Source: Clostridiaceae bacterium JG1575 (GTDB lineage: Bacteria; Bacillota; Clostridia; Clostridiales; Clostridiaceae). Taken from it: a stretch of 64,000 nt of DNA. The notes under the pieces are model-generated. The model saw nothing but the letters and a program-made list of their open reading frames with translations, was not told where the DNA came from and did no database searches. Both the position numbers and the translations under genes were made by a program. The DNA lies in contig LQGW01000031.1 in the NCBI GenBank assembly GCA_002838815.1, forward strand, positions 62,001 through 126,000, written 5' to 3'. Positions 12,772-24,709 of this stretch are shown here, one piece after another. Position 1 is the first letter of the stretch, and every line of letters starts with the position of its first letter.

Positions 12772-14037
12772 TTATTTTGGGGGGGCGATTGATTCGCTTT
12801 GAGGATTGCCCAATCCATGGGTCACCTGAATAAAGCACCCCAGCGCAAGGGCAAAGGCGATGGGGGCATATAAAAACAAAGAACCAAAGGTTCCCGAGAG
12901 GTCTCGAATCAAGCCAAAGAGAATGGGGCTTGCAATGGAGGCGGAAAAGGAAAAGAAATAATAGTAGCCGGTGAAGGTTCCAAGTTCCGAAGGCCCCGCA
13001 AGCTCCAGTACCATAGGAAGGGAGTTGATGTTGATGAGGGCCCAGAAAAGCCCCCCCAAAAGCAGCAGGATGCGTATGGCCAGGAGGTTTTCAATAAATA
13101 GAATGGGTAAAAACACCAAAACCAGCCCCAACAGCCCCAGGATGATGGTCTTACGCCGACCGATCCTCTGCGCCAAAAATCCGGAAGGCACGGCAAAGAG
13201 CACAAAGGAAACTGAGAAGAATGCCAAAAGCATGGCCGCTTGACCATCGCTCATGCCCAACCGATTTGTGGCATAGCTGGTAAAGAAGGTTTCCACAGCG
13301 TTGTAGGCGCAAAACCAAAAGAAAATTGCCAAGAGCAAAAACAAGAGGCTTTTGCGTTCATTTTTGGGCAGCTTTTGAAAGGACTCCAACCCGAAGCGGC
13401 CACCGGCCATTGACTGCTCGCCTTCGAGAAGTTCAATGCGCCAAGGCCCCAAGGCAGGTTCCCGGACTCGCAAAAACAACACCCCCACAGCGAGAATCAT
13501 TACCGCTGCGCCCATGAGAAAAGTGGCCCCTCGGCCATAAGCATGGGCGATCTTCCCGCCCACTAAAAATGCGACGATGGACGCAATGCCCCCCATTAAA
13601 TTGATGATGCCGTTGGCCTTACTGCGTAAAGGATCCGGCGTTAAGTCGGGCATCAAAGCGATCATGGGCGAGCGCCAGATTGACATGATCAGGTTAAAGG
13701 TAATGATCAGGAGCATCAAGCTCCAAAGATGACCCATGCGTGGGATGAATACGAAGAGAATGCCGCAAATCGGGGCCCCCAGGATAATGTAGGGCATGCG
13801 CTTTCCTATGGGCGTTCTCGTGCGGTCGCTGATGGCGCCAAAGAGCGGCTGAAAAATGACGCCGAAGACGTTGTCGATGGTCATAATCAGTCCCACTGCC
13901 GTGGTGGATTTAATAAAATCCTGCAAAATCAGCGGTACAAAGCTGTTGTAGATGCTCCACAATAAGGAGCTTGCAAAAAAGCCCAGGCCAATGAATAACG
14001 TGGCCCCCACCTGAAGTTTCTCCTTGCGTTCCAACGC
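12772..14037 (-). CDS. MFS transporter, sugar-porter like (GPH/SLC45-like)
   Basis: A 12-helix major facilitator. The loop 2-3 motif reads GAISDRTRTPIGKRMPYIILG, a form seen in sucrose/glycoside porters of the GPH/SLC45 kind, and a large cytoplasmic loop follows helix 6. The frame extends to 14292, but the first 85 codons are polar and unlike transporters. A TTG at 14037 stands 8 bases after AAGGGAGGAG and starts the product just ahead of helix 1 (MERKEKLQVGATLFIG), so I prefer it (421 residues); ATG 14094 behind AAGGAG is the alternative. It follows the PfkB kinase gene, so a nucleoside or glycoside substrate is plausible. Confidence 0.85.
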   Translation of the reverse strand, partial: ALERKEKLQVGATLFIGLGFFASSLLWSIYNSFVPLILQDFIKSTTAVGLIMTIDNVFGVIFQPLFGAISDRTRTPIGKRMPYIILGAPICGILFVFIPRMGHLWSLMLLIITFNLIMSIWRSPMIALMPDLTPDPLRSKANGIINLMGGIASIVAFLVGGKIAHAYGRGATFLMGAAVMILAVGVLFLRVREPALGPWRIELLEGEQSMAGGRFGLESFQKLPKNERKSLLFLLLAIFFWFCAYNAVETFFTSYATNRLGMSDGQAAMLLAFFSVSFVLFAVPSGFLAQRIGRRKTIILGLLGLVLVFLPILFIENLLAIRILLLLGGLFWALININSLPMVLELAGPSELGTFTGYYYFFSFSASIASPILFGLIRDLSGTFGSLFLYAPIAFALALGCFIQVTHGLGNPQSESIAPPK

Positions 14038-14331
14038 GCCATCTCCTCCCTTTCCCCGCCCCATTGACGGTCTACCATTTTCTTCTTCCATCATACTGGG
14101 AGACGCTCCTTTTTGCACCCATCCCCCAAAGCACGTCGACATTCCCGTTGGGTCAAATCCAAAAAAACAGTTGCGGCGCCCTGGAGCAAAGGTCACTCCT
14201 ATTGGATCTTTGGACGGGACTCTCCCTTGGGAGTCCCCTGACGCAACCGCACGCCATGCCTCGTTTTTGCCTCTCCTTTTCCCTAAGGGCACCGATGTGC
14301 GAGGGCCGGCGCAGTATTTTTGCCAAGCCCT

Positions 14332-15237
14332 CTACCGCCTCCTTTGTTCTGTAAAAAATGCGTCCACTTCTGCCGCTCTTGGAATGGATCTTGCGGCGCC
14401 TGGCCGCATCACCGCCAACGCAGCGGCGTGAGCGCTTTGCTTTAGCGCCTCAGGCACGCAATCCCCTCGAGACACCGCCGCCAGAAAATACCCGGTGAAG
14501 GTATCGCCAGCCCCCGTCGTATCCACCGCTTGCACCGAAACCGCCCCTTGGGATAAGCGCTCCTTTTGATGAGCGTACAAGGCGCCCCGCTCACCTAAGG
14601 TCAAAACGATGTGTCCGTTGGGACAGCGCCCCGCCAAGGCTTCCAGGATCTCCTGAGGCTCTTGTTTTTTTGTCAGATGCGCTCCCTCTGCTTCATTGAG
14701 GATCAAATAGGCCAATCGCTCCAAGGGAAGGGCTTCAAGGGAAGAGGTCACGGGCGAGGGATTGAGGCAAACCCTTAAGCCGCGGCGAAAGCCTTCTTCT
14801 AAAAGCTCCTCCAGATCGTTGAGTTCATTTTGCAGCACAAGAAAATCTCCCGGCCTCCCTTGGGCCAACGCCCGTTGCCGATGCGCTTTGGAAATGGCGT
14901 GATTGGCCCCCGGATATAAAAGGATGCTGTTTTGACCGCTGGCATCGAGTTGGATGATGGCGTGTCCCGTAAGCGTGCCCGGGATCTTCTCCACGCCCTT
15001 TGTCTCAATTCCCTCGGAAGCCAAAAACGCCAACACGCTCTCGTCCTCCTCCTCTCCCAGAGCGCCGGCCAAGGAGACTTTAGCGCCGGCTCGGGCCAAA
15101 GCAATGGCCTGATTGAGTCCCTTTCCCCCCAAAAAGACTTGCCGGCGCGACGACAAGATCGTTTCCCCCGGCAGCACCATGTGGTCCACCGCATAGACGT
15201 AATCATGATTGATGGATCCAAAACACCATATTCTCAT
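14332..15237 (-). CDS. PfkB family sugar kinase (ribokinase-like)
   Basis: ATP-dependent kinase of 301 residues. Signature 1 is at about residue 35-45 (FLGGKGLNQAIALARAGAKV) and signature 2 with the catalytic Asp at DTTGAGDTFTGYFLAA; NPSPV and LNEAE are also typical of ribokinases. The substrate may be ribose, deoxyribose or another furanose; the neighbours (MFS porter, PTS, Rpe-like epimerase) do not fix it. Start ATG 15237 follows GAGGAGGG; an upstream in-frame extension to 15399 has no ribosome site. About 240 bases without a gene follow before the MFS gene. Confidence 0.88.
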   Translation of the reverse strand: MRIWCFGSINHDYVYAVDHMVLPGETILSSRRQVFLGGKGLNQAIALARAGAKVSLAGALGEEEDESVLAFLASEGIETKGVEKIPGTLTGHAIIQLDASGQNSILLYPGANHAISKAHRQRALAQGRPGDFLVLQNELNDLEELLEEGFRRGLRVCLNPSPVTSSLEALPLERLAYLILNEAEGAHLTKKQEPQEILEALAGRCPNGHIVLTLGERGALYAHQKERLSQGAVSVQAVDTTGAGDTFTGYFLAAVSRGDCVPEALKQSAHAAALAVMRPGAARSIPRAAEVDAFFTEQRRR

Positions 15238-15425
15238 CGAAACCCTCCTCGACCGAACCGAATCCGTAGTATTCCCGCTGCCCTTGGCATGGGTCCCTCT
15301 CATCATACCAAACCCCCTGCTCCTAGTTTGCTGTCCCAAGCCTTTTCCAGCCCCTAAATTTTCGGCGTGACAGTGCCAACAAGTTTTTTTATTAAACACT
15401 CCTGTGTTTCAAAAGGTATCTCGAC

Positions 15426-15495: not shown

Positions 15496-17112
15496 TTATC
15501 TCTCCAATAGGTCGTTGATGCGGCTGAGGATTCCACCCACTCGAACGCCATAAATGATCTGTATGGCCGAATGATGACGAACTACACCTAACGCTTCCAA
15601 ATGCTTCATCCAAAGCTCATCGGAAGCGACTTTAGCTTCCTCCTTCACCCCCACCCGCAGGCGAGTGGCGCAAGAGGTGATGGATTCTATATTATCTTTG
15701 CCTCCTAAGGCTTCGATGATGCGCTCTTCCAAAGAGTCTCCCGTGTTCTGAGCCAGCAAAACGCCCCCGGTCTCTTTTTGCGCCTTTTGTTCGTGATACT
15801 CTTTTTTACTTGTTAGCTTCACAGGATCCTCAAGTTCCCCGCGACCCGGAGTTTTCAGGTTGAACTTCAATATGGCAATCTTGAAGAGGAAATAGTAAAT
15901 CGCAAAAGTTAAGGGCAACAACCACAATAAATGTAGGGCATGGACCTTATGCATCTGGAAAAGATTGGGAATCATGAAAAAGAGCGCATGACCATTGATG
16001 GAGATCTGGGCCATCTCCGTAGCCACATAGCAAAGGCCAGCTAAAGGAGCATACAATAGAAAGTACAGGGCTGGGGCCACAAATAAAAAGGTATATTCGA
16101 TGGGCTCTGAGATTCCAACCAACGCTAAGGTGAGCACCGCAGGAATTAAGATTGAGGCCACTTTTTTACGGTTTTCGGGTTTTGCAGTATGCCAAATTGC
16201 CAAGGCAGCGCCCGGAAGCCCCGCCAACTGAAAGAGCAGTCGGCCTGAGGTAAAGTTTCGCACCAAGTATCCTGTAGCGCCTGCAGACGCTGCCTGGCCA
16301 TTCATAATGTTGCGCACGCCTTCATAAAGCGTTCCATCAATCCACATGGATCCCCCCACATTGGAATATTCTATGGGGAAAGCAATCAAGTGATGGATGC
16401 CAAAAGGCAGCAGCAACTTATCCAAGGTCCCAAAAACAAAAGTACCCAAAAGGCCCGAGCGCCCAATGAAATGGGCAATGCCTTGAATACCTTGACCTAT
16501 GAGAGGCCAGATATAGTAAAGGGCGACGCCAACGGGTAAGGAGAATAGCGTGATTAAGATGACCACAAAACGCGTACCGCCAAAGAAGGCAAACATAGCA
16601 GGCAGCTCTTGATCCACCCACTTATTGTGGATAATGGATGCGATGAGCCCCGAAATGATCCCCGAAAAAATACCCATGTTATAGCCAAAAATACCTTGGG
16701 CATGTCCCCAAAGGGCATTGAAGTTTGCCGCGCGGGCCGCATCCCAACCATTGGCAGTCAACACGTCCACCGCCGTGGTTTTCTCCGTCCAGCCCTGAAC
16801 GCCTGCATAGGTTTGAATCACCGTCAATACGCAAAAATAGAAGACAAGGCCTGAGAATGCCCCCCACCCTTTTTCTTTTTTGGCCAAGGCAAAGGAAAGA
16901 CCCCCGGCAAACCAAACGGGGAGGTTATTCATAAACATGAAGCCTAAGCTGGAAATCAAGCGAAAAAACGTGTGAAAAAGGGTTCCCCTGGGCAAGATAT
17001 AATTGGTAAAAGCACTGCCGATCCCGACATAAAATCCCACCAAAACAAAGAGAATGATGGGCACCATCATGGCGCCGGCAAAGGTCTGAAGTCGTTCCTG
17101 ATACTTTTTCAT
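15496..17112 (-). CDS. PTS EIICB permease, glucose/alpha-glucoside family
   Basis: Membrane sugar phosphotransferase of 538 residues that imports and phosphorylates a sugar or glycoside. The first 420 residues are a Glc-family EIIC domain with about ten hydrophobic segments, including FGIHHLIAFPIEYSNVGG and ISEPIEYTFLFVAPALYF (the conserved sugar-site GISEPIEY). The last 75 residues are EIIB with the phospho-cysteine in ITSCATRLRVGV. No EIIA is attached or nearby, so a general EIIA-Glc must serve it. ATG 17112 follows GGGAGGG. It is 98 bases after the fusion hydrolase gene on the same strand. Family resemblance suggests glucose, glucosamine or an alpha-glucoside; I cannot name the substrate. 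Confidence 0.9.
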   Translation of the reverse strand: MKKYQERLQTFAGAMMVPIILFVLVGFYVGIGSAFTNYILPRGTLFHTFFRLISSLGFMFMNNLPVWFAGGLSFALAKKEKGWGAFSGLVFYFCVLTVIQTYAGVQGWTEKTTAVDVLTANGWDAARAANFNALWGHAQGIFGYNMGIFSGIISGLIASIIHNKWVDQELPAMFAFFGGTRFVVILITLFSLPVGVALYYIWPLIGQGIQGIAHFIGRSGLLGTFVFGTLDKLLLPFGIHHLIAFPIEYSNVGGSMWIDGTLYEGVRNIMNGQAASAGATGYLVRNFTSGRLLFQLAGLPGAALAIWHTAKPENRKKVASILIPAVLTLALVGISEPIEYTFLFVAPALYFLLYAPLAGLCYVATEMAQISINGHALFFMIPNLFQMHKVHALHLLWLLPLTFAIYYFLFKIAILKFNLKTPGRGELEDPVKLTSKKEYHEQKAQKETGGVLLAQNTGDSLEERIIEALGGKDNIESITSCATRLRVGVKEEAKVASDELWMKHLEALGVVRHHSAIQIIYGVRVGGILSRINDLLER

Positions 17113-17210: not shown

Positions 17211-18992
17211 TTATAGGTTTATGGGATCGGTGAGTTTCTCCAACGCCAAAGACCAAATGGCCATTGCTCGAGCAAGGGAAGAAATGCTTTGGCACTCGTT
17301 TGCTAAATGGGATCGGGGCACTTCTTTTGGAAAGGTCGGTCCAAACGCTACCCCGTGGGTCAACGCTCGGGCGTACGAAGCGCCCCCCTTGCAAAGAAGC
17401 TTTGCCGGCTCATGGGTTACGGCTTCATACGCTTCTTTGAGACAGCGAATCAATGGGTCATTTTCCGGGACATACAAAAGCGCTCGCTCTTTATGAGTCG
17501 TCCAAATCCCTCGCCAAGGAGCCAGCGCTTTTTCAATGATGGAGCACACCTTCACTTGGTCCAATGGATGTCCGAATCGAACGTCCAAGCCCACTGTGAG
17601 ATGTCCCTTCTCATACCAAATCTTAGTCAGCGCTGCCGTGTGCTGGGAGGCCACGGAATCCTTTGTCGCGCCAAAGAGCCTCTCAAGGGTTACGATGCAC
17701 TCCCCCACCTCTTGAAGAATCCGTTGACCTTCTGCTTTTAAGGTAGTCCCAAGGGCTCCATCCCGCCTTCTTTGGTCCAAAACCTGCCACGCGCTCTCCC
17801 CCCGCTCGGGATGACGAGAGAGCGCCCGCGTTCCCTTAAAGATCTCTTCTTGGCTCTCGCCTGTTGTCGCGTCGAAGCTTCGCAGCGTTAATTCTTCCAA
17901 AATGAAACCTTCCCGTCCCGCACCCTCTAGCCGGATGTCTTCTGAGAACCAGGGAAAGAAAAAATCCGCCTGCCCCTCGATCATTCCCTTTTCCTCTTGA
18001 ACAATGGGAAAATCCCCATCTGGCGAGAATCCCCAGCGTGGCTGAGGATTCTCCTTAAAGTACGCCGTGATGCCCTCCCAGCTCGTTTCCTCTGCACCAC
18101 CCACGATCAAGCGCACAGGCAATGCGCCTAAACGCTTTTCCCGCTTTAAGTACGCGAGGGTATGGAGAATGGCCAACAGTGGCCCCTTATTGTCATTGAC
18201 GCCTCGTCCGTAAAAAAAGCCATCTCGCCGATCTAGGAGATAAGGATCGCTCATCCAAAGGGCACGCTCGATTTCTTCCACCGTATCAATGTGGCAAAGC
18301 ACCCCTACATAGTCCTCCCCAGGCCCCGTGGAGATTTCTAAAACCTGATGGGCGACACTTCGAGTTGAAAAACCTAGGGCTTGGGACCGCTGCGACAAAT
18401 AGGCGAACGCTTGGGCGATGCCCTGCCCAAAGGGCGCCTCTGAAGTTTTGCTGGATTCATCCCGATGAGATGGAATGGCGATCAGCACCTGTAGATCCTC
18501 AGCCACCTCCAAAAGAAGCGGAATCATTTCTTCGATGCGCTCTTCCATCGACGATCCTTGGTTGATATCGCGAGCCGTTTTTGCCGCTTGCAGACAGGCA
18601 AGGGCCAGTTCATGATCTTCCTGTGGACTTCGCCCCGTAATGGAAATAGCTCCCAAAAGACCACCTTTTGGTTGAAATATAGGCACTCCCCCCGCCACTA
18701 AGGTCATCTCCCGCTGAGAACACCCATAGCGAGTTTCTAAAAGAGACCCATCCTGTTGAAGCTTCTCGCCAAGCGCTTGGGTGCTGAGTCCGAAATATAA
18801 AACGGTCCGACGTTTTCGAAGGAGCCAGTCTTCTTTGTCCTGTCCCAATTCATCCGGGAGATACCTTAGGGCACAGCGCCCGTTCAAAAAAAGATCCACA
18901 CCTACATCCGGAGCCTCCCGCTGAAGAAACGCCCAGATGTTTCGGACCTGTTCCGCTGCGAAGGATTCGCCAGCGATTTTTTGCTTTGCCAT
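17211..18992 (-). CDS. Fusion protein: HbpS/UPF0303-like domain plus M20 (PepV/Sapep-like) hydrolase
   Basis: Two domains in 593 residues. Residues about 1-145 resemble the HbpS/GlcG-like UPF0303 family (VDLFLNGRCALRYL, LLRKRRTVLYFG, VAGGVPIF, GGLLGAISITG). Residues about 150-593 are an M20 dipeptidase of the PepV/Sapep type, with metal ligands at H234 and D236 (LCHIDTV), D267 (GRGVNDNKGP), E301-E302 (GGAEETSWEG), D325 (SPDGDFP) and a late His in VPRSHLANE. The hydrolase part therefore looks active on an amide. The gene lies between the Rpe-like and PTS genes on the same strand. I know of no such fusion as a standard architecture. ATG 18992 follows TAGGAGGC. Confidence 0.85.
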   Translation of the reverse strand: MAKQKIAGESFAAEQVRNIWAFLQREAPDVGVDLFLNGRCALRYLPDELGQDKEDWLLRKRRTVLYFGLSTQALGEKLQQDGSLLETRYGCSQREMTLVAGGVPIFQPKGGLLGAISITGRSPQEDHELALACLQAAKTARDINQGSSMEERIEEMIPLLLEVAEDLQVLIAIPSHRDESSKTSEAPFGQGIAQAFAYLSQRSQALGFSTRSVAHQVLEISTGPGEDYVGVLCHIDTVEEIERALWMSDPYLLDRRDGFFYGRGVNDNKGPLLAILHTLAYLKREKRLGALPVRLIVGGAEETSWEGITAYFKENPQPRWGFSPDGDFPIVQEEKGMIEGQADFFFPWFSEDIRLEGAGREGFILEELTLRSFDATTGESQEEIFKGTRALSRHPERGESAWQVLDQRRRDGALGTTLKAEGQRILQEVGECIVTLERLFGATKDSVASQHTAALTKIWYEKGHLTVGLDVRFGHPLDQVKVCSIIEKALAPWRGIWTTHKERALLYVPENDPLIRCLKEAYEAVTHEPAKLLCKGGASYARALTHGVAFGPTFPKEVPRSHLANECQSISSLARAMAIWSLALEKLTDPINL

Positions 18993-19080
18993 GACTTTCT
19001 GCCTCCTAAATCATATATCGTCTTTTTTCATTGAATGCCAAAAGGATCCCTAGCACGCTAGAGATCCTTTGTTAGCTCGT

Positions 19081-19797
19081 TTAATCCAACCCGCAGCGGG
19101 CCGCCGCCTGGTCGATAGCCTTGCGACACTTGGCCACGCTTGCTGTGATGCCGCTAGGATCCTTGAACAAAGCAGAAGAAAGCACGATGACGTCGGGATT
19201 ACAGGCGATGAGAGGCTCCATGTTGTCCGAACGCAACCCGCCGTCAATTGCCAGTTCACAGGAGGGGTTCTTCTTATCAATGAGATTGCGAGCACGTCGC
19301 AACAAATCAGGTACGCTCTTGCGCCAGCCCCAATTATCCTTTCCGTCGGTTTCATCCACTCCATGCGTGACGATATGAAGTCGGTCGATGTCGTAGATGG
19401 ACTCCTCCACAAATGAAAGAGGTGTATAGCAGCCCAGCGCAAGCCCCACCTTCATCTGGCGCTCCCGGCACCAATTGATGATGTAAGCAAGCTGCGCCCC
19501 AAGAAAATGCTCCGCCGGCAAAATCAAAAGATTGGCACCGGCCGCTGCAATTTGCTCGATGTATAAAAGATCCATGCTGACAGTATATATGTGGTTTTCA
19601 ATGGGGAGATCCGTATAGGGGCGGATCGCTGATATGATCTGGTGGCCGCCCATGAGCTTCATATTTTGAAGGTCATGCATGTCCGCCGCATCCGAATGGA
19701 TGATGTCGGCCCCGGCCTTAGAGACTTCCGCTACTAGATCCGCAATGTGTCCATAATTTACATGGGCTAAGCCCGCGGCAATTTTAATGTGCTTCAT
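19081..19797 (-). CDS. Ribulose-phosphate 3-epimerase-like protein (divergent)
   Basis: TIM-barrel protein of 238 residues. The metal ligands of the family can be matched: His and Asp in ADIIHSDAADM, His in PIENHIYT, Asp in LAIDGGLRSDN. The usual MDGHFVPN text is replaced by DMHDLQNM, so this is not the housekeeping Rpe but a divergent member, perhaps acting on a hexulose- or other ketose-phosphate as AlsE-type enzymes do. Start ATG 19797 follows GGGGAGGAGC; the frame extends to 19974 without a ribosome site. It lies 88 bases before the fusion hydrolase and 210 bases after the PRD regulator. Confidence 0.83.
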   Translation of the reverse strand: MKHIKIAAGLAHVNYGHIADLVAEVSKAGADIIHSDAADMHDLQNMKLMGGHQIISAIRPYTDLPIENHIYTVSMDLLYIEQIAAAGANLLILPAEHFLGAQLAYIINWCRERQMKVGLALGCYTPLSFVEESIYDIDRLHIVTHGVDETDGKDNWGWRKSVPDLLRRARNLIDKKNPSCELAIDGGLRSDNMEPLIACNPDVIVLSSALFKDPSGITASVAKCRKAIDQAAARCGLD

Positions 19798-20006: not shown

Positions 20007-21548
20007 TTACGGCTGAATCCTTTGATTTTTTTGAACCAGAACCTGCGAGAGCCGTTTTTTAATTTCCTCAAGAGCGGCGGGTGTCAAAATGCGCCCGATG
20101 GGCACCACCTTGCCGCCTCGACAAAGGGTCCAAGAAAGCGTTGTTAAGATGACATCGGCCCGCGCCGCCATTTCCTCTTGAAAGGTCAGCGGATTTTGAA
20201 TGGCTAGCACCTCCATGCGAGGGAATGTCTCCAAAAGCTGCTCTTTTAAAAGATTGCAACCACCCGGCCCCATATCGCAGATCAAAAGGGCTTGTAGCGG
20301 CACCTGACGGTCAGCCAGCATTCGGACCAAATGAAGGGTCAGATAGCCGATCTCTTCTTCACTGGGCAGTGTATGGTAGCGCGCTTCGATAAAGTGACGT
20401 CCCTCGTAAACGATGCGGTACGCCCTTCGGTATTTCGCGCGGATTTCTCCAAGAAGTGGATTTTCCAAATAAATGCCGTGACGAAAGCGAGTGAGTGAGG
20501 GTAACAAGTGGTCCAATAGAGCGGTTCGGGCGGCAGTGCTCGGTGAAAGATCCTCGCCCAAGGCTAAGGACCAGGCGCCAATCAAAGCATCCGCTAAGTC
20601 TTGTGCCTCTTTTTCCTCTTCTTTTTTTTGCTCGGAGCCCTTTCTTTGGCTGATGCAATACACCTGAATGAAGCGCAGTTCCACTGCAGGCAGCCGTACC
20701 CCGTAATCGTGCTCGATGGCTTTGGCTAAATGAGTTACTTCCTCATAATAGGGCTCCTGCTGCACCCAATGAATAAATTCTTCTGAAAGGGTTACTTCGT
20801 GCCCTTCCCGGAACCTTGAAAAGCTTACGTAACTCAAAATAAGAAGGCTCATAAAGGATTGCACGGACAAATCCTTTAAAAAAGGCTTAGAGGCGCTGCG
20901 CCAAGTCTTGCCAAAGCGAACGACATCTTCCGCCCGAAGAGACAGGCCTGGCACTAATGGCTCTTTCAAGGGAAGGGTTTTATTGCCCAATACCATTTGC
21001 GTTAGCTCCTGCATACGCTGGCTGTTAACGATGAGATCCGTCAAACAATGACGAATGCGCCGCTCCCGGCCCTCAACGCGGATGCCATGATTTTTGGCCC
21101 GATGCACGGAAATCCGGTAACGGCTCAGAAGTGTTTGCACCCCCTCCAAATCCTTTTGAATGGTGGCCGTGCTGACATAGAGTTCTTGGGCTAGGGTATA
21201 CAGTCGAACCTCTTCAGAACTCGATAGGAGCCTTAGGGCCAGCGCCCGTTCCCGCCCCTGGGGGCTTGTATCCCATAGCGAAGAACCTGGATCACCCAGA
21301 GCCTCATGCCTCAAGTGATCCAAAAGTGTTTGCAAATTCACAGAACTTCCAATGAGGCGTACGCCCTGCCCTGTTTTTTTCTCCAAGCAAAGACCAGCCT
21401 CTTGAAGAGCACCCTCCAGAGCCTTTAGATCGTTGCGTAGCGTCTTCTCCGAGACGTCGCAGTGAAAAGCAAGTAGGCGCACTGGAACATAACTGTCTTT
21501 TTTACGCTCCAAGAGATCCAGCAGCGTAGTGAGCCGATTCGTTTTCAA
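20007..21548 (-). CDS. PRD-containing transcriptional regulator (MtlR/LicR/BglG type)
   Basis: A 513-residue regulator: N-terminal winged helices (RLTTLLDLLERKKDSYVPV and VSEKTLRNDLKALE), a second helix-turn-helix (YVSTATIQKDL), two PTS-regulation domains (about 170-400) and a C-terminal EIIB-like domain starting LLICDMGPGGCNLL. Such proteins activate sugar operons when phosphorylated or dephosphorylated by PTS components. No RNA-binding CAT domain is seen, so it is a DNA-binding activator rather than an antiterminator. Start is TTG 21548, 6 bases after GGAGGG; it overlaps the lacZ stop (TTGA), so translation is coupled to lacZ. It likely controls the PTS genes below it. Confidence 0.88.
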   Translation of the reverse strand: MKTNRLTTLLDLLERKKDSYVPVRLLAFHCDVSEKTLRNDLKALEGALQEAGLCLEKKTGQGVRLIGSSVNLQTLLDHLRHEALGDPGSSLWDTSPQGRERALALRLLSSSEEVRLYTLAQELYVSTATIQKDLEGVQTLLSRYRISVHRAKNHGIRVEGRERRIRHCLTDLIVNSQRMQELTQMVLGNKTLPLKEPLVPGLSLRAEDVVRFGKTWRSASKPFLKDLSVQSFMSLLILSYVSFSRFREGHEVTLSEEFIHWVQQEPYYEEVTHLAKAIEHDYGVRLPAVELRFIQVYCISQRKGSEQKKEEEKEAQDLADALIGAWSLALGEDLSPSTAARTALLDHLLPSLTRFRHGIYLENPLLGEIRAKYRRAYRIVYEGRHFIEARYHTLPSEEEIGYLTLHLVRMLADRQVPLQALLICDMGPGGCNLLKEQLLETFPRMEVLAIQNPLTFQEEMAARADVILTTLSWTLCRGGKVVPIGRILTPAALEEIKKRLSQVLVQKNQRIQP

Positions 21549-24520
21549 GACACTCCCTCCTTTGAGAAAGCATGCGCGGGCTGATTTAAAGCAACCGGTC
21601 GTCGCTCCAGACGAAATTGTCCTTGCAAGGCTTCCCCATTGTAGCAAAGCTTTTGAGGAATGGGTGGGCCGCAGGCCGCAGACCCTACTGCGCTCATCCA
21701 AAGATCCAGGTGAAGGAACCACAGGTCCTGCGCTTTCAAGGCCTCTTGTCGCTGAAAGTCGTAGGAAAGCGCCGCCAGGGCTTCGGGCCGCAGAGGTTGC
21801 ACGCAAAAGGAAAACGGGGTGGGTGAGTGCACCAACAGTTCTTCCTCCGGGCTCTTGAGGAGGAGTTCATAGCAGCCTCCCCGACTGCCGCTTTCCTGAG
21901 GCCGAATGTAGGGATGGGGAATCTCACGGATGGCTCGCTCGTGCCAGTCGAACCAAGCGGCTTCTTTTTTATCGGGGTAATTCTCATAGGGCCCTTGGCC
22001 CAGCCAGCGAATCTTTGTAAAGCTCTTTGGGATGGGCACCAAAAGCCCTACCCGCGGAAAATCCAAGCTGGACTCCTCGGGCCCAATCGAAACGGACACC
22101 GCCCAAACCCCGGGGCTCATCGTTGCCTTTAGCTCGCCCGAGAGTAAGTGAACGACTCCTTCCAAATCAAAGCACGCTTGCAAGAAATCCGTCGATTCCC
22201 CTTGGGCCACTTGGACGTTCTTGAGTTTACAGCGAGCCTTATCAAGACCCAAGCGCTCCCAATGGCCCTTTCGGTGAAGGTCATTGTCTGTGGGAGCGCG
22301 ATAGACACAAAACTCCGGCCAAAGGGGCCTTCCCTCTTGGAAAAAGCCCAGGGACTTTTCAGAGAGCCGCCCCCAATCCAAGGGGAGGTTTTTGGCCTCA
22401 AAGAATCCCAGCGTGGGTTGAGGGGCTTCAAAAGCCGGAGCGCTGTAAGCCTCGCGAAATGCCGCCCCGCCGCCCAAGGATTCTTCAAACGTCAGGCGCT
22501 CCTCCCCGTCATAAACCTCTGCCAAAACGTCCATGCCCTGGATCTTGGGCAAGGGGATCCACTGATCGTCCCTTGCCTTGAGCGGCAAAAGGATCTGTTG
22601 CTTTTCCCAAAGAAGGGTGCCTCGAAGGCGGGCCGCGAGACGCAGCGTCAGATTATTTAGGGTTTTAAAGTCCAACCGGCTGGTTGCTCGAAGCCCGCCC
22701 TCCTCAAACGTCAGGGTCACGGGTTCATATACTTTTTGCATTTCATAATAGGCCGGGTGAGGCACACGATCGGGATCCACCAGCCCATCAATGCAGAAAT
22801 TGCCATCGTGGAGGCCCCCGCCAAAGCCTCCACCATAGACGTAATCGCGCCCGTGAGTTTTCGATCTTGGGATCCCGTGATCGGCAAACTCCCAAATAAA
22901 CCCACCGCAAAAGGAATCGTTGGCCCAGCAAAGATCCATGTAGGCGCGCAGATCTCCGGGACCATTGCCCATGGCGTGGCTGTACTCACACAAAATCAAT
23001 GGGCGTGTATTGGTCTCATCCGTAAGATAGACCTTCTCAATCCACTCCGGCGACGGGTACATCCTAGAGTAAAAATCGATGTAGGATAAATCCAGCTCCT
23101 TATGATCCATTCGGCCTTCTTGGGCATTGGGAAAAAAGATCCGCTCGTAGTGGATCAATTCCTTCGTCCTCTCGCGAAGCCATCGGCCCGCCCGGTCGAA
23201 ATTTTGACCGTGCCCTGCCTCATTGCCCAGCGACCAGATGATGACGCAGCTGGCGTTTTTATCTCGCTCATAGAGCCGCTGGATGCGGTCCATAAACGCA
23301 AGAGCAAAGCGGTCGTCCGTTGCGAGAACGTGTCCATCCCCTGTCCCTTCCCAAATCGTTCCGTGGGTCTCGATGTCGGCTTCATTCATCACGTAAAAGC
23401 CCATTTGAGTGGCCAGATCGTACATTCTGGGATCGTTTGGATAATGCGCGGTGCGTAGGGCATTCACGTGGGCTTTTTTCAAAAGGGCAAAGTCCTTTTG
23501 GGTTTGGGCCAAAGAGACACAAGGTCCCCGCGTGGGCCAAAATTCATGACGATTGACGCCTTTGAGCTTGATCGGCCGCCCATTGAGGCAAAGGGTTCGA
23601 TCCCGAATCGCTACGCTACGAAATCCCAAGGTAAACCCAATGTATTCATCCTGAACGCGAAGGACCAGGCGATACCAAACAGGGTCCTCCGCCGACCAAA
23701 GGTTTGCTTGAGCCAGCGTAAAAACCCCTTGCGCCGCCGATGCCATCAAAGGCACCTCTTGCGTCCCTTCACGATAAAGAGCGACCTCTTTGAACTCCGA
23801 AAGGTTTGAAGCCTTAATATGAAGCTCGGCGTTTTTGCCCTCCGCGGGGCAAACGGTCTTTAGGGCGACGTCATGGGGGGCCAAGGGGTGGCGGGTGAGA
23901 AGATAGACGGATCGGAAAAGACCCGACATGCGCCACTTATCCTGGTCCTCCAAATACGTGCCATCGCACCATTTTAATACGGCGAGGCAAATCGTATTCT
24001 CGCCCGGATGCAGAACGTCCGTGACGTCAAATTCGGCCGTCATGTGGCTGCCCTTGGTCATCCCCATCCATCGATCATTGACGTAGACGTAAGCACAGGA
24101 ATCCGCTCCTTCGAGCACCAAAACAACGCGCCGAAGAAGATCCTCGGTGGTGAGGGCCACCCGCCGTTGATAGACTCCTGTGGGATTCTTAATGGGAACG
24201 CGCGGCGGGACAAACGGAATGGGATAGCGTTGATTGAGATAGACCGGAGGATCCGTATCTTTCGCCTCGATCTGCCACGCCCCGGGAACGGAAATAACTT
24301 GATCAAAAATCAGTTGCGAAGGCTGAAGCGTCACTAGATCCTCCGGGGATTCAAAAAATGCAAAATCCCAAGGGCCGTTGAGATCCTTAAAATAAGCAGA
24401 TGCTTCTCTAGGGGCGTGGATGGCTTTGTCAAGACACTCATAAGGAACGTAGTAAGCTCTGGGGGCCATACGGCCGCAGTGCTGAATGTTGGGATCTTCC
24501 CAAAGCTTTGGGGTAAGCAT
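21545..24520 (-). CDS. lacZ: Beta-galactosidase, GH2 family (LacZ-like)
   Basis: Large cytoplasmic glycosidase of 991 residues that splits lactose or other beta-galactosides. Domains follow LacZ: jelly-roll (PVYLNQRYPIPF, DKWRMSGLFRSVYLL), immunoglobulin-like linker, TIM barrel with VNRHEFWP, acid/base Glu in IWSLGNEAGHG and nucleophile Glu in LCEYSHAMGNGPG, and a C-terminal Bgal_small domain (YRAPTDNDL, GQGPYENYPDKK). No signal peptide. I start at ATG 24520 behind GGAAAGGAG; ATG 24568 is an alternative. It is divergent from mglB, which imports galactose. Its coupling to the PRD regulator gene suggests that it belongs to the PTS block as well. Confidence 0.95.
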   Translation of the reverse strand: MLTPKLWEDPNIQHCGRMAPRAYYVPYECLDKAIHAPREASAYFKDLNGPWDFAFFESPEDLVTLQPSQLIFDQVISVPGAWQIEAKDTDPPVYLNQRYPIPFVPPRVPIKNPTGVYQRRVALTTEDLLRRVVLVLEGADSCAYVYVNDRWMGMTKGSHMTAEFDVTDVLHPGENTICLAVLKWCDGTYLEDQDKWRMSGLFRSVYLLTRHPLAPHDVALKTVCPAEGKNAELHIKASNLSEFKEVALYREGTQEVPLMASAAQGVFTLAQANLWSAEDPVWYRLVLRVQDEYIGFTLGFRSVAIRDRTLCLNGRPIKLKGVNRHEFWPTRGPCVSLAQTQKDFALLKKAHVNALRTAHYPNDPRMYDLATQMGFYVMNEADIETHGTIWEGTGDGHVLATDDRFALAFMDRIQRLYERDKNASCVIIWSLGNEAGHGQNFDRAGRWLRERTKELIHYERIFFPNAQEGRMDHKELDLSYIDFYSRMYPSPEWIEKVYLTDETNTRPLILCEYSHAMGNGPGDLRAYMDLCWANDSFCGGFIWEFADHGIPRSKTHGRDYVYGGGFGGGLHDGNFCIDGLVDPDRVPHPAYYEMQKVYEPVTLTFEEGGLRATSRLDFKTLNNLTLRLAARLRGTLLWEKQQILLPLKARDDQWIPLPKIQGMDVLAEVYDGEERLTFEESLGGGAAFREAYSAPAFEAPQPTLGFFEAKNLPLDWGRLSEKSLGFFQEGRPLWPEFCVYRAPTDNDLHRKGHWERLGLDKARCKLKNVQVAQGESTDFLQACFDLEGVVHLLSGELKATMSPGVWAVSVSIGPEESSLDFPRVGLLVPIPKSFTKIRWLGQGPYENYPDKKEAAWFDWHERAIREIPHPYIRPQESGSRGGCYELLLKSPEEELLVHSPTPFSFCVQPLRPEALAALSYDFQRQEALKAQDLWFLHLDLWMSAVGSAACGPPIPQKLCYNGEALQGQFRLERRPVALNQPAHAFSKEGVS

Positions 24521-24709
24521 CGGCATCTCCTTTCCGGCATGGGGGGCGTTTAGTAAATTGGATGGCATTTTCCCGGCAATTTCCCGGCTGTTTTCTTCAT
24601 TTTACGCTCATCGCGCTCCTTGTGCGAAGCCGAACCCCCCCTCTTGTTGAAATATAGCAAATAGGCAACGGATTCCATTGAAAATTCTTCCTGCATTATG
24701 GATTTTAAC

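Follow-up and report, generated by a model that had tools for sequence, protein, structure and literature searches.

An HbpS-like domain fused to an M20 hydrolase in Clostridiaceae bacterium JG1575 and its relation to a PTS-linked M20 subfamily of Bacillota

PTS transporters of unknown substrate are frequent in gut and environmental Bacillota, and peptidases found next to them are usually set aside as out of place. A locus in Clostridiaceae bacterium JG1575 raises the question of what such a peptidase-family protein does beside a PTS importer, and why it carries an HbpS-like domain at its N-terminus. In the stretch of DNA that we analyzed (the window, 64,000 nt), a single open frame of 593 residues (17211–18992; this and all other features described below lie on the minus strand) is preceded by the ribosome-binding site AGGAGG (19002–19007). 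Its HbpS-like/UPF0303 domain (residues 1–145; 18558–18992) matched Pfam PF03928 at residues 32–134 (1.3e-16), with 61.3 bits against a curated cut-off of 25 bits. Its Sapep/PepV-like hydrolase domain (residues 149–593; 17211–18548) matched the Peptidase_M20 family PF01546 at residues 233–585 (5.6e-20) and, from residue 163 onward, the NCBIfam model TIGR01887 for Sapep-family dipeptidases (1.1e-72; 245.7 bits, above the curated cut-off of 207.95 bits). The cut-offs of the PepV equivalog models were missed by far (241.3 vs 435 and 172.7 vs 632 bits). AlphaFold2, run with an alignment made from 42 cluster proteins, modeled the fusion with a mean pLDDT of 92 and a pTM of 0.78, placing both domains at high confidence on either side of a flexible hinge at residues 141–150 (pLDDT 61), of which residues 141–148 correspond to 18549–18572. 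When the N-terminal domain was modeled in isolation (pLDDT 90), the first 23 PDB matches all had the HbpS/DUF336 fold at a Foldseek probability of 1.00, among them Ybr137w, EfgA, OrfY, HbpS, NahX, PduOC and 4nkp. The whole model matched Sapep and PepV first, through its M20 part. The preliminary description of this DNA had assigned the two halves to the UPF0303/HbpS-like and the PepV/Sapep-like M20 families; both assignments hold, and the HbpS-like + M20 architecture is confirmed as real.

The gene order around the fusion is lacZ, regulator, epimerase, fusion, EIICB, kinase and MFS. Profile matches identified a GH2 beta-galactosidase upstream (21545–24568), an RPE-type epimerase (19081–19797), a PfkB/ribokinase-like sugar kinase (14332–15399) and an MFS transporter (12772–14292). 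The PTS EIICB (15496–17112) belongs to the glucose/maltose superfamily and scored below all equivalog cut-offs. For the PRD/Mga-type regulator (20007–21548), the start was re-assigned by eye; the listed frame overlaps the end of lacZ (21545–21806), and the start probably lies near 21548. The epimerase retains the RPE metal ligands H34, D36, H69 and D185. Its phosphate-binding NPGFGGQ loop is replaced by HGVDETDGKDNWGW, and its substrate may therefore differ from the normal pentulose phosphate. Between the epimerase and the fusion gene lies a strong hairpin of 12 pairs followed by a short U run (19040–19070; MFE -25.5, z -2.76), which was missing from a separate pattern-scan list. The hairpin is terminator- or attenuator-like and may uncouple the expression of the two genes.

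Is the fusion itself genuine? No second HbpS-M20 fusion was found in the phylum (399), order (227) and class (391) samples searched with the HbpS domain, which partly overlap and comprise about 940 genomes in total. It was likewise absent from all 59 related loci, which were recovered by a contig search with an alignment of the neighboring epimerase. A contig search with the fusion alone as the query returned no loci, and none of nine further HbpS neighborhoods from the class sample (L100–L108) had an M20 gene adjoining HbpS. The recurrence beside PTS genes that would have supported the earlier reading thus failed to appear, with no other genome among about 940 and 0/59 related loci. Two relatives keep HbpS and M20 as adjoining, unfused genes with an 8-bp overlap: Proteiniclasticum aestuarii (L032/L037) is one, a MAG of the Peptoniphilaceae (L051) the other. 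Inside the fusion frame, the M20 domain opens with an ATG (Met149; 18546–18548) that is a possible second translation start, with AAGGA, a possible Shine-Dalgarno sequence, 6 nt ahead of it (18555–18559). Given the overlapping pair and the retained start, a small insertion or deletion is the simplest origin of the fusion. The same evidence makes a sequencing or assembly frameshift conceivable from sequence alone, in which case the two genes would actually be separate and overlapping, as in the relatives. Restriction to the JG1575 genome fits this artefact, as do the relative frame of the relatives' overlapping genes, which differs from that of the fusion, the retained M20 ATG with its AAGGA box, a five-A run about 30 nt upstream and a stop at codon 155 in the +1 frame. 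However, both halves are intact and share one frame across the hinge with no stop, conserved residues are retained in both, the HbpS part remains in frame to the point where it normally ends (about residue 145), and the shifted frame would give an overlap longer than the 8 bp of the relatives. We consider a frameshift rather unlikely; the fusion, though observed once, is probably genuine.

Phylogenetic trees place both halves with proteins of the related loci. The fused HbpS domain groups with the 12 HbpS genes of these loci in a single clade that excludes generic HbpS proteins (96/95, a rough bootstrap support). Which member of this clade is closest to the fused domain is uncertain, as the tree pairs it with the long-branch L052 whereas the L032 HbpS is nearest to it by identity (42%) and by path. 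The fusion M20, itself a long branch, is sister to the unfused Proteiniclasticum M20 (100/99), and the cluster-specific M20 subfamily is supported at 100/100. Compared with the Proteiniclasticum copies, the epimerase of the window is 81% and its EIICB 72% identical, and its M20 and HbpS parts are near 40%.

The related loci contain a recurrent PTS gene cluster of Bacillota, comprising EIICB, M20, an RPE-type epimerase, a PRD regulator, an Fe-alcohol dehydrogenase, an HAD protein, an FSA/transaldolase, YitT and sometimes HbpS. M20 and EIICB co-occur in 27/59 loci, and 27 of the 28 M20 genes directly adjoin EIICB on the same strand, which substantiates the proposed PTS link of the fusion M20. 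Alongside the 27 M20+EIICB loci, we found the regulator in 25, the Fe-alcohol dehydrogenase in 22, YitT in 19, HAD, FSA/transaldolase and EIIA in 17 each, HbpS in 8 and a tryptophanase-like lyase in 4. The locus in the window has no EIIA, no aldolase and no dehydrogenase of the cluster type, and the pathway in JG1575 may therefore not be the same; elsewhere in this genome the cluster dehydrogenase had no close match, the best being 28–30%. No description of the PTS-M20-epimerase operon was found in the open-access literature. The cluster is widespread and apparently unstudied. Clostridioides difficile strains 173070 and CD160 (L055, L057) also have it. Additionally, a gene resembling tryptophanase/tyrosine phenol-lyase lies near the epimerase in L056, L058, L065, L070, L076 and L091. 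A second variant without a PTS, present in thirteen loci, combines the same epimerase type with M3/M29 peptidases, amidohydrolases, a dehydrogenase and a candidate solute-binding protein with ABC partners, the last two named from sequence by eye. The amidohydrolases of this variant are Xaa-Pro-dipeptidase-like, and an Fe-alcohol dehydrogenase is usual in the non-PTS loci (L060, L064, L067–L069, L071, L073, L075, L077–L081 and L095).

The active sites were compared between the 28 cluster M20s and 18 PepV-type controls from related genomes. The metal ligands named earlier for the fusion form a complete set (H234, catalytic D236, D267, catalytic E301, E302, D325 and H562). The metal ligands are retained in 28/28 cluster M20s, and one of the 28 has Asp in place of the catalytic Glu301. 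The lid His of PepV/Sapep is present in 18/18 controls and in 0/28 cluster M20s, which have L, M, P, Q or R at this position. In the fusion the residue is Leu391, a substitution that the preliminary description had passed over, and it lies in the lid motif GTRALSRHPERGES (residues 387–400; 17793–17834). The subfamily alignment showed two further changes: Arg393 of the same motif is found in 28/28 cluster M20s (Ser in 18/18 controls), and Lys535 of the loop C-K-G-G-A-S-Y-A-R-A (residues 534–543; 17364–17393) is likewise found in 28/28 (Ile in 17/18 controls). The cluster M20s also have Ser539 where the controls have Thr, and they retain Arg472.

In PepV, His269 and Arg350 bind the C terminus of the substrate, and an Asp at the position equivalent to D325 goes with dipeptidase/aminopeptidase, not acylase, specificity (PMC6271292). 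The corresponding lid His is dispensable in Vibrio PepD (PMC6271292); taken by itself, the loss therefore says little about a new substrate. Stronger evidence is the appearance of two invariant basic residues, and their conservation and charge suggest a putative phosphate-binding role for Arg393 and Lys535. A free amino group would still be required on one side of the bond, and the other side would present a group that is no carboxylate, plausibly the phosphate from the PTS. The lid and loop changes, invariant in the 28 cluster M20s, thus back the earlier proposal of a non-dipeptide, probably phosphorylated substrate. Instead of a "new type of amide hydrolase", as suggested earlier, the cluster M20s are better described as a separate subfamily within the Sapep/PepV branch of the M20 family.

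The M20 domain might still be an ordinary PepV dipeptidase that lies near PTS genes by chance. The TIGR01887 score and the dipeptidase-like Asp ligand and Arg472 would agree with such an enzyme, and in a glyco-amino-acid cluster of Lactobacillus casei PepV is dispensable (PMC6960285). However, an ordinary dipeptidase would hardly be expected to adjoin EIICB directly in 27/28 close relatives, to fall in a separate clade at 100/100 and to have lost the lid His in 28/28. Moreover, the same genome also encodes a canonical PepV-like paralogue with the lid His (L035). We regard an ordinary dipeptidase as improbable, and the fusion M20 is best read as a putative hydrolase that cuts the amide bond of an aminoacyl-sugar conjugate phosphorylated by the PTS.

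What the HbpS domain contributes was approached through its pocket and its gene neighbors. The formaldehyde-site residues of EfgA, K57, S114 and D121 (PMC8153426), align with K60, T119 (Ser to Thr) and D126 of the fusion, and the ligand-pocket residues are conserved throughout the operon HbpS clade. T119 and D126 occur widely across DUF336 proteins and hence do not point to an aldehyde in particular. A separate HbpS gene occurs in 12 related loci, where it adjoins the alcohol dehydrogenase in five and M20 in two. M20 is absent from four of these 12 loci, and HbpS is absent from 20/28 M20-bearing loci; an obligate partnership of HbpS with M20 was rejected on these counts. The preliminary description had suggested that the first domain may bind or present the PTS-imported substrate, which would here mean passing the PTS product to the M20 site. 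The fusion itself and the HbpS/M20 adjacency in two relatives speak for such a hand-over. However, neither protein depends on the other in the loci just counted, and where HbpS is separate its neighbor is the dehydrogenase oftener than M20, so we now hold substrate presentation to be very improbable. For the same reason we favor the view that the HbpS domain senses or binds a small molecule of the pathway, an aldehyde being the likeliest candidate.

Alternatively, the domain could be chiefly an oligomerization scaffold or a haem/redox module that senses no intermediate. HbpS, OrfY and PduOC assemble as octamers, Ybr137w as a decamer (PMC4923194), whereas PepV is a monomer (PMC6271292); the fusion would therefore alter assembly, and a DUF336 domain joined to an enzyme is already known from PduO. 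Conservation of the pocket residues in the operon clade argues against a scaffold. As for haem, the ligand of PduOC is His18 in helix 1 (PMC4923194), and the fusion has no His in this helix, H127 being the sole His of its N-terminal domain; bis-His binding of the PduOC type was rejected on this ground. We consider a scaffold or haem/redox role unlikely and prefer a sensing or binding role. Elsewhere, in L100, an HbpS gene adjoins a regulator of the PRD type and PTS components of another kind, hinting at a wider link between HbpS and PTS operons. Its product is 48% identical to a protein of the related loci and groups with generic HbpS on the tree.

Taken together, we propose a putative mechanism for this locus. 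EIICB would import and phosphorylate a conjugate whose parts are joined by an amide bond and whose acyl side has a free amino group, and the di-metal M20 site would cleave this bond, with Arg472, Arg393 and Lys535 gripping the phosphorylated leaving part in place of a C-terminal carboxylate. The released moiety would pass to the epimerase and, in relatives, also to the aldolase, the HAD protein and the Fe-alcohol dehydrogenase. The HbpS domain may bind a small compound of the pathway, an aldehyde most likely, in an EfgA-like pocket of K60, T119 and D126, and either report on it or regulate; the fusion would put this domain at the first hydrolytic step. As a whole, this account of a lineage-specific fusion drawn from a PTS catabolic cluster, with an M20 that cleaves a PTS-imported conjugate and an HbpS domain that senses, has in our estimate a little less than an even chance of being right. 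More tentatively, we speculate that a pathway of this kind may extend across Bacillota, with the M20 subfamily cleaving a PTS-phosphorylated aminoacyl-sugar or similar amide and a protein of the DUF336 family acting as sensor of some reactive intermediate; in JG1575 these two would be joined in a single protein. The same tentative reading includes a sister pathway, which in place of the PTS and M20 would use a peptide-type solute-binding protein, M3/M29 peptidases and amidohydrolases, alongside a dehydrogenase and an epimerase of the type seen here.

The PTS-linked M20 subfamily, with its clear signature, is a wider and more durable result than the single fusion. With the loss of the lid His and the gain of Arg393 and Lys535 (28/28 vs 0/18), the class of substrate can be tested directly, and annotators would have a criterion for telling the subfamily apart from PepV. 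The fusion bears on the role of DUF336 proteins in catabolic operons, as it suggests that the DUF336 protein works in the same pathway as M20.

Among known systems, PepV and Sapep (1lfw, 3ki9) share with the fusion M20 the fold, all metal ligands, the catalytic Asp and Glu, the Asp at the dipeptidase-linked ligand position and the equivalent of Arg350. In contrast to them, the fusion subfamily lacks the lid His and has invariant Arg393 and Lys535, and the fusion M20 belongs to a separate, PTS-linked clade and bears an N-terminal HbpS domain. That domain resembles EfgA, Ybr137w (UPF0303), HbpS and the PduO C-domain in fold and pocket residues, and PduO also in being joined to an enzyme. Unlike other DUF336/HbpS members, it lies N-terminal to an M20 hydrolase, belongs to an operon-specific clade and lacks the haem-ligating His in helix 1. 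Of the characterized systems, the one nearest to the locus is alf-2 from L. casei, a cluster for fucosyl-GlcNAc-Asn catabolism in which a glycosylasparaginase does the cleavage and PepV can be dispensed with (PMC6960285). Besides its PepV-type M20, alf-2 encodes a sugar kinase and an MFS permease, and the window locus likewise has a kinase and an MFS transporter; however, alf-2 has neither a PTS importer nor an RPE-type epimerase. The sgc operon of E. coli pairs the metallopeptidase-like SgcX (M42) with the RPE-type epimerase SgcE. Like the cluster described here, sgcXBCQAER is a PTS operon for an unknown sugar (PMC5797941), although its peptidase family and PTS class are different.
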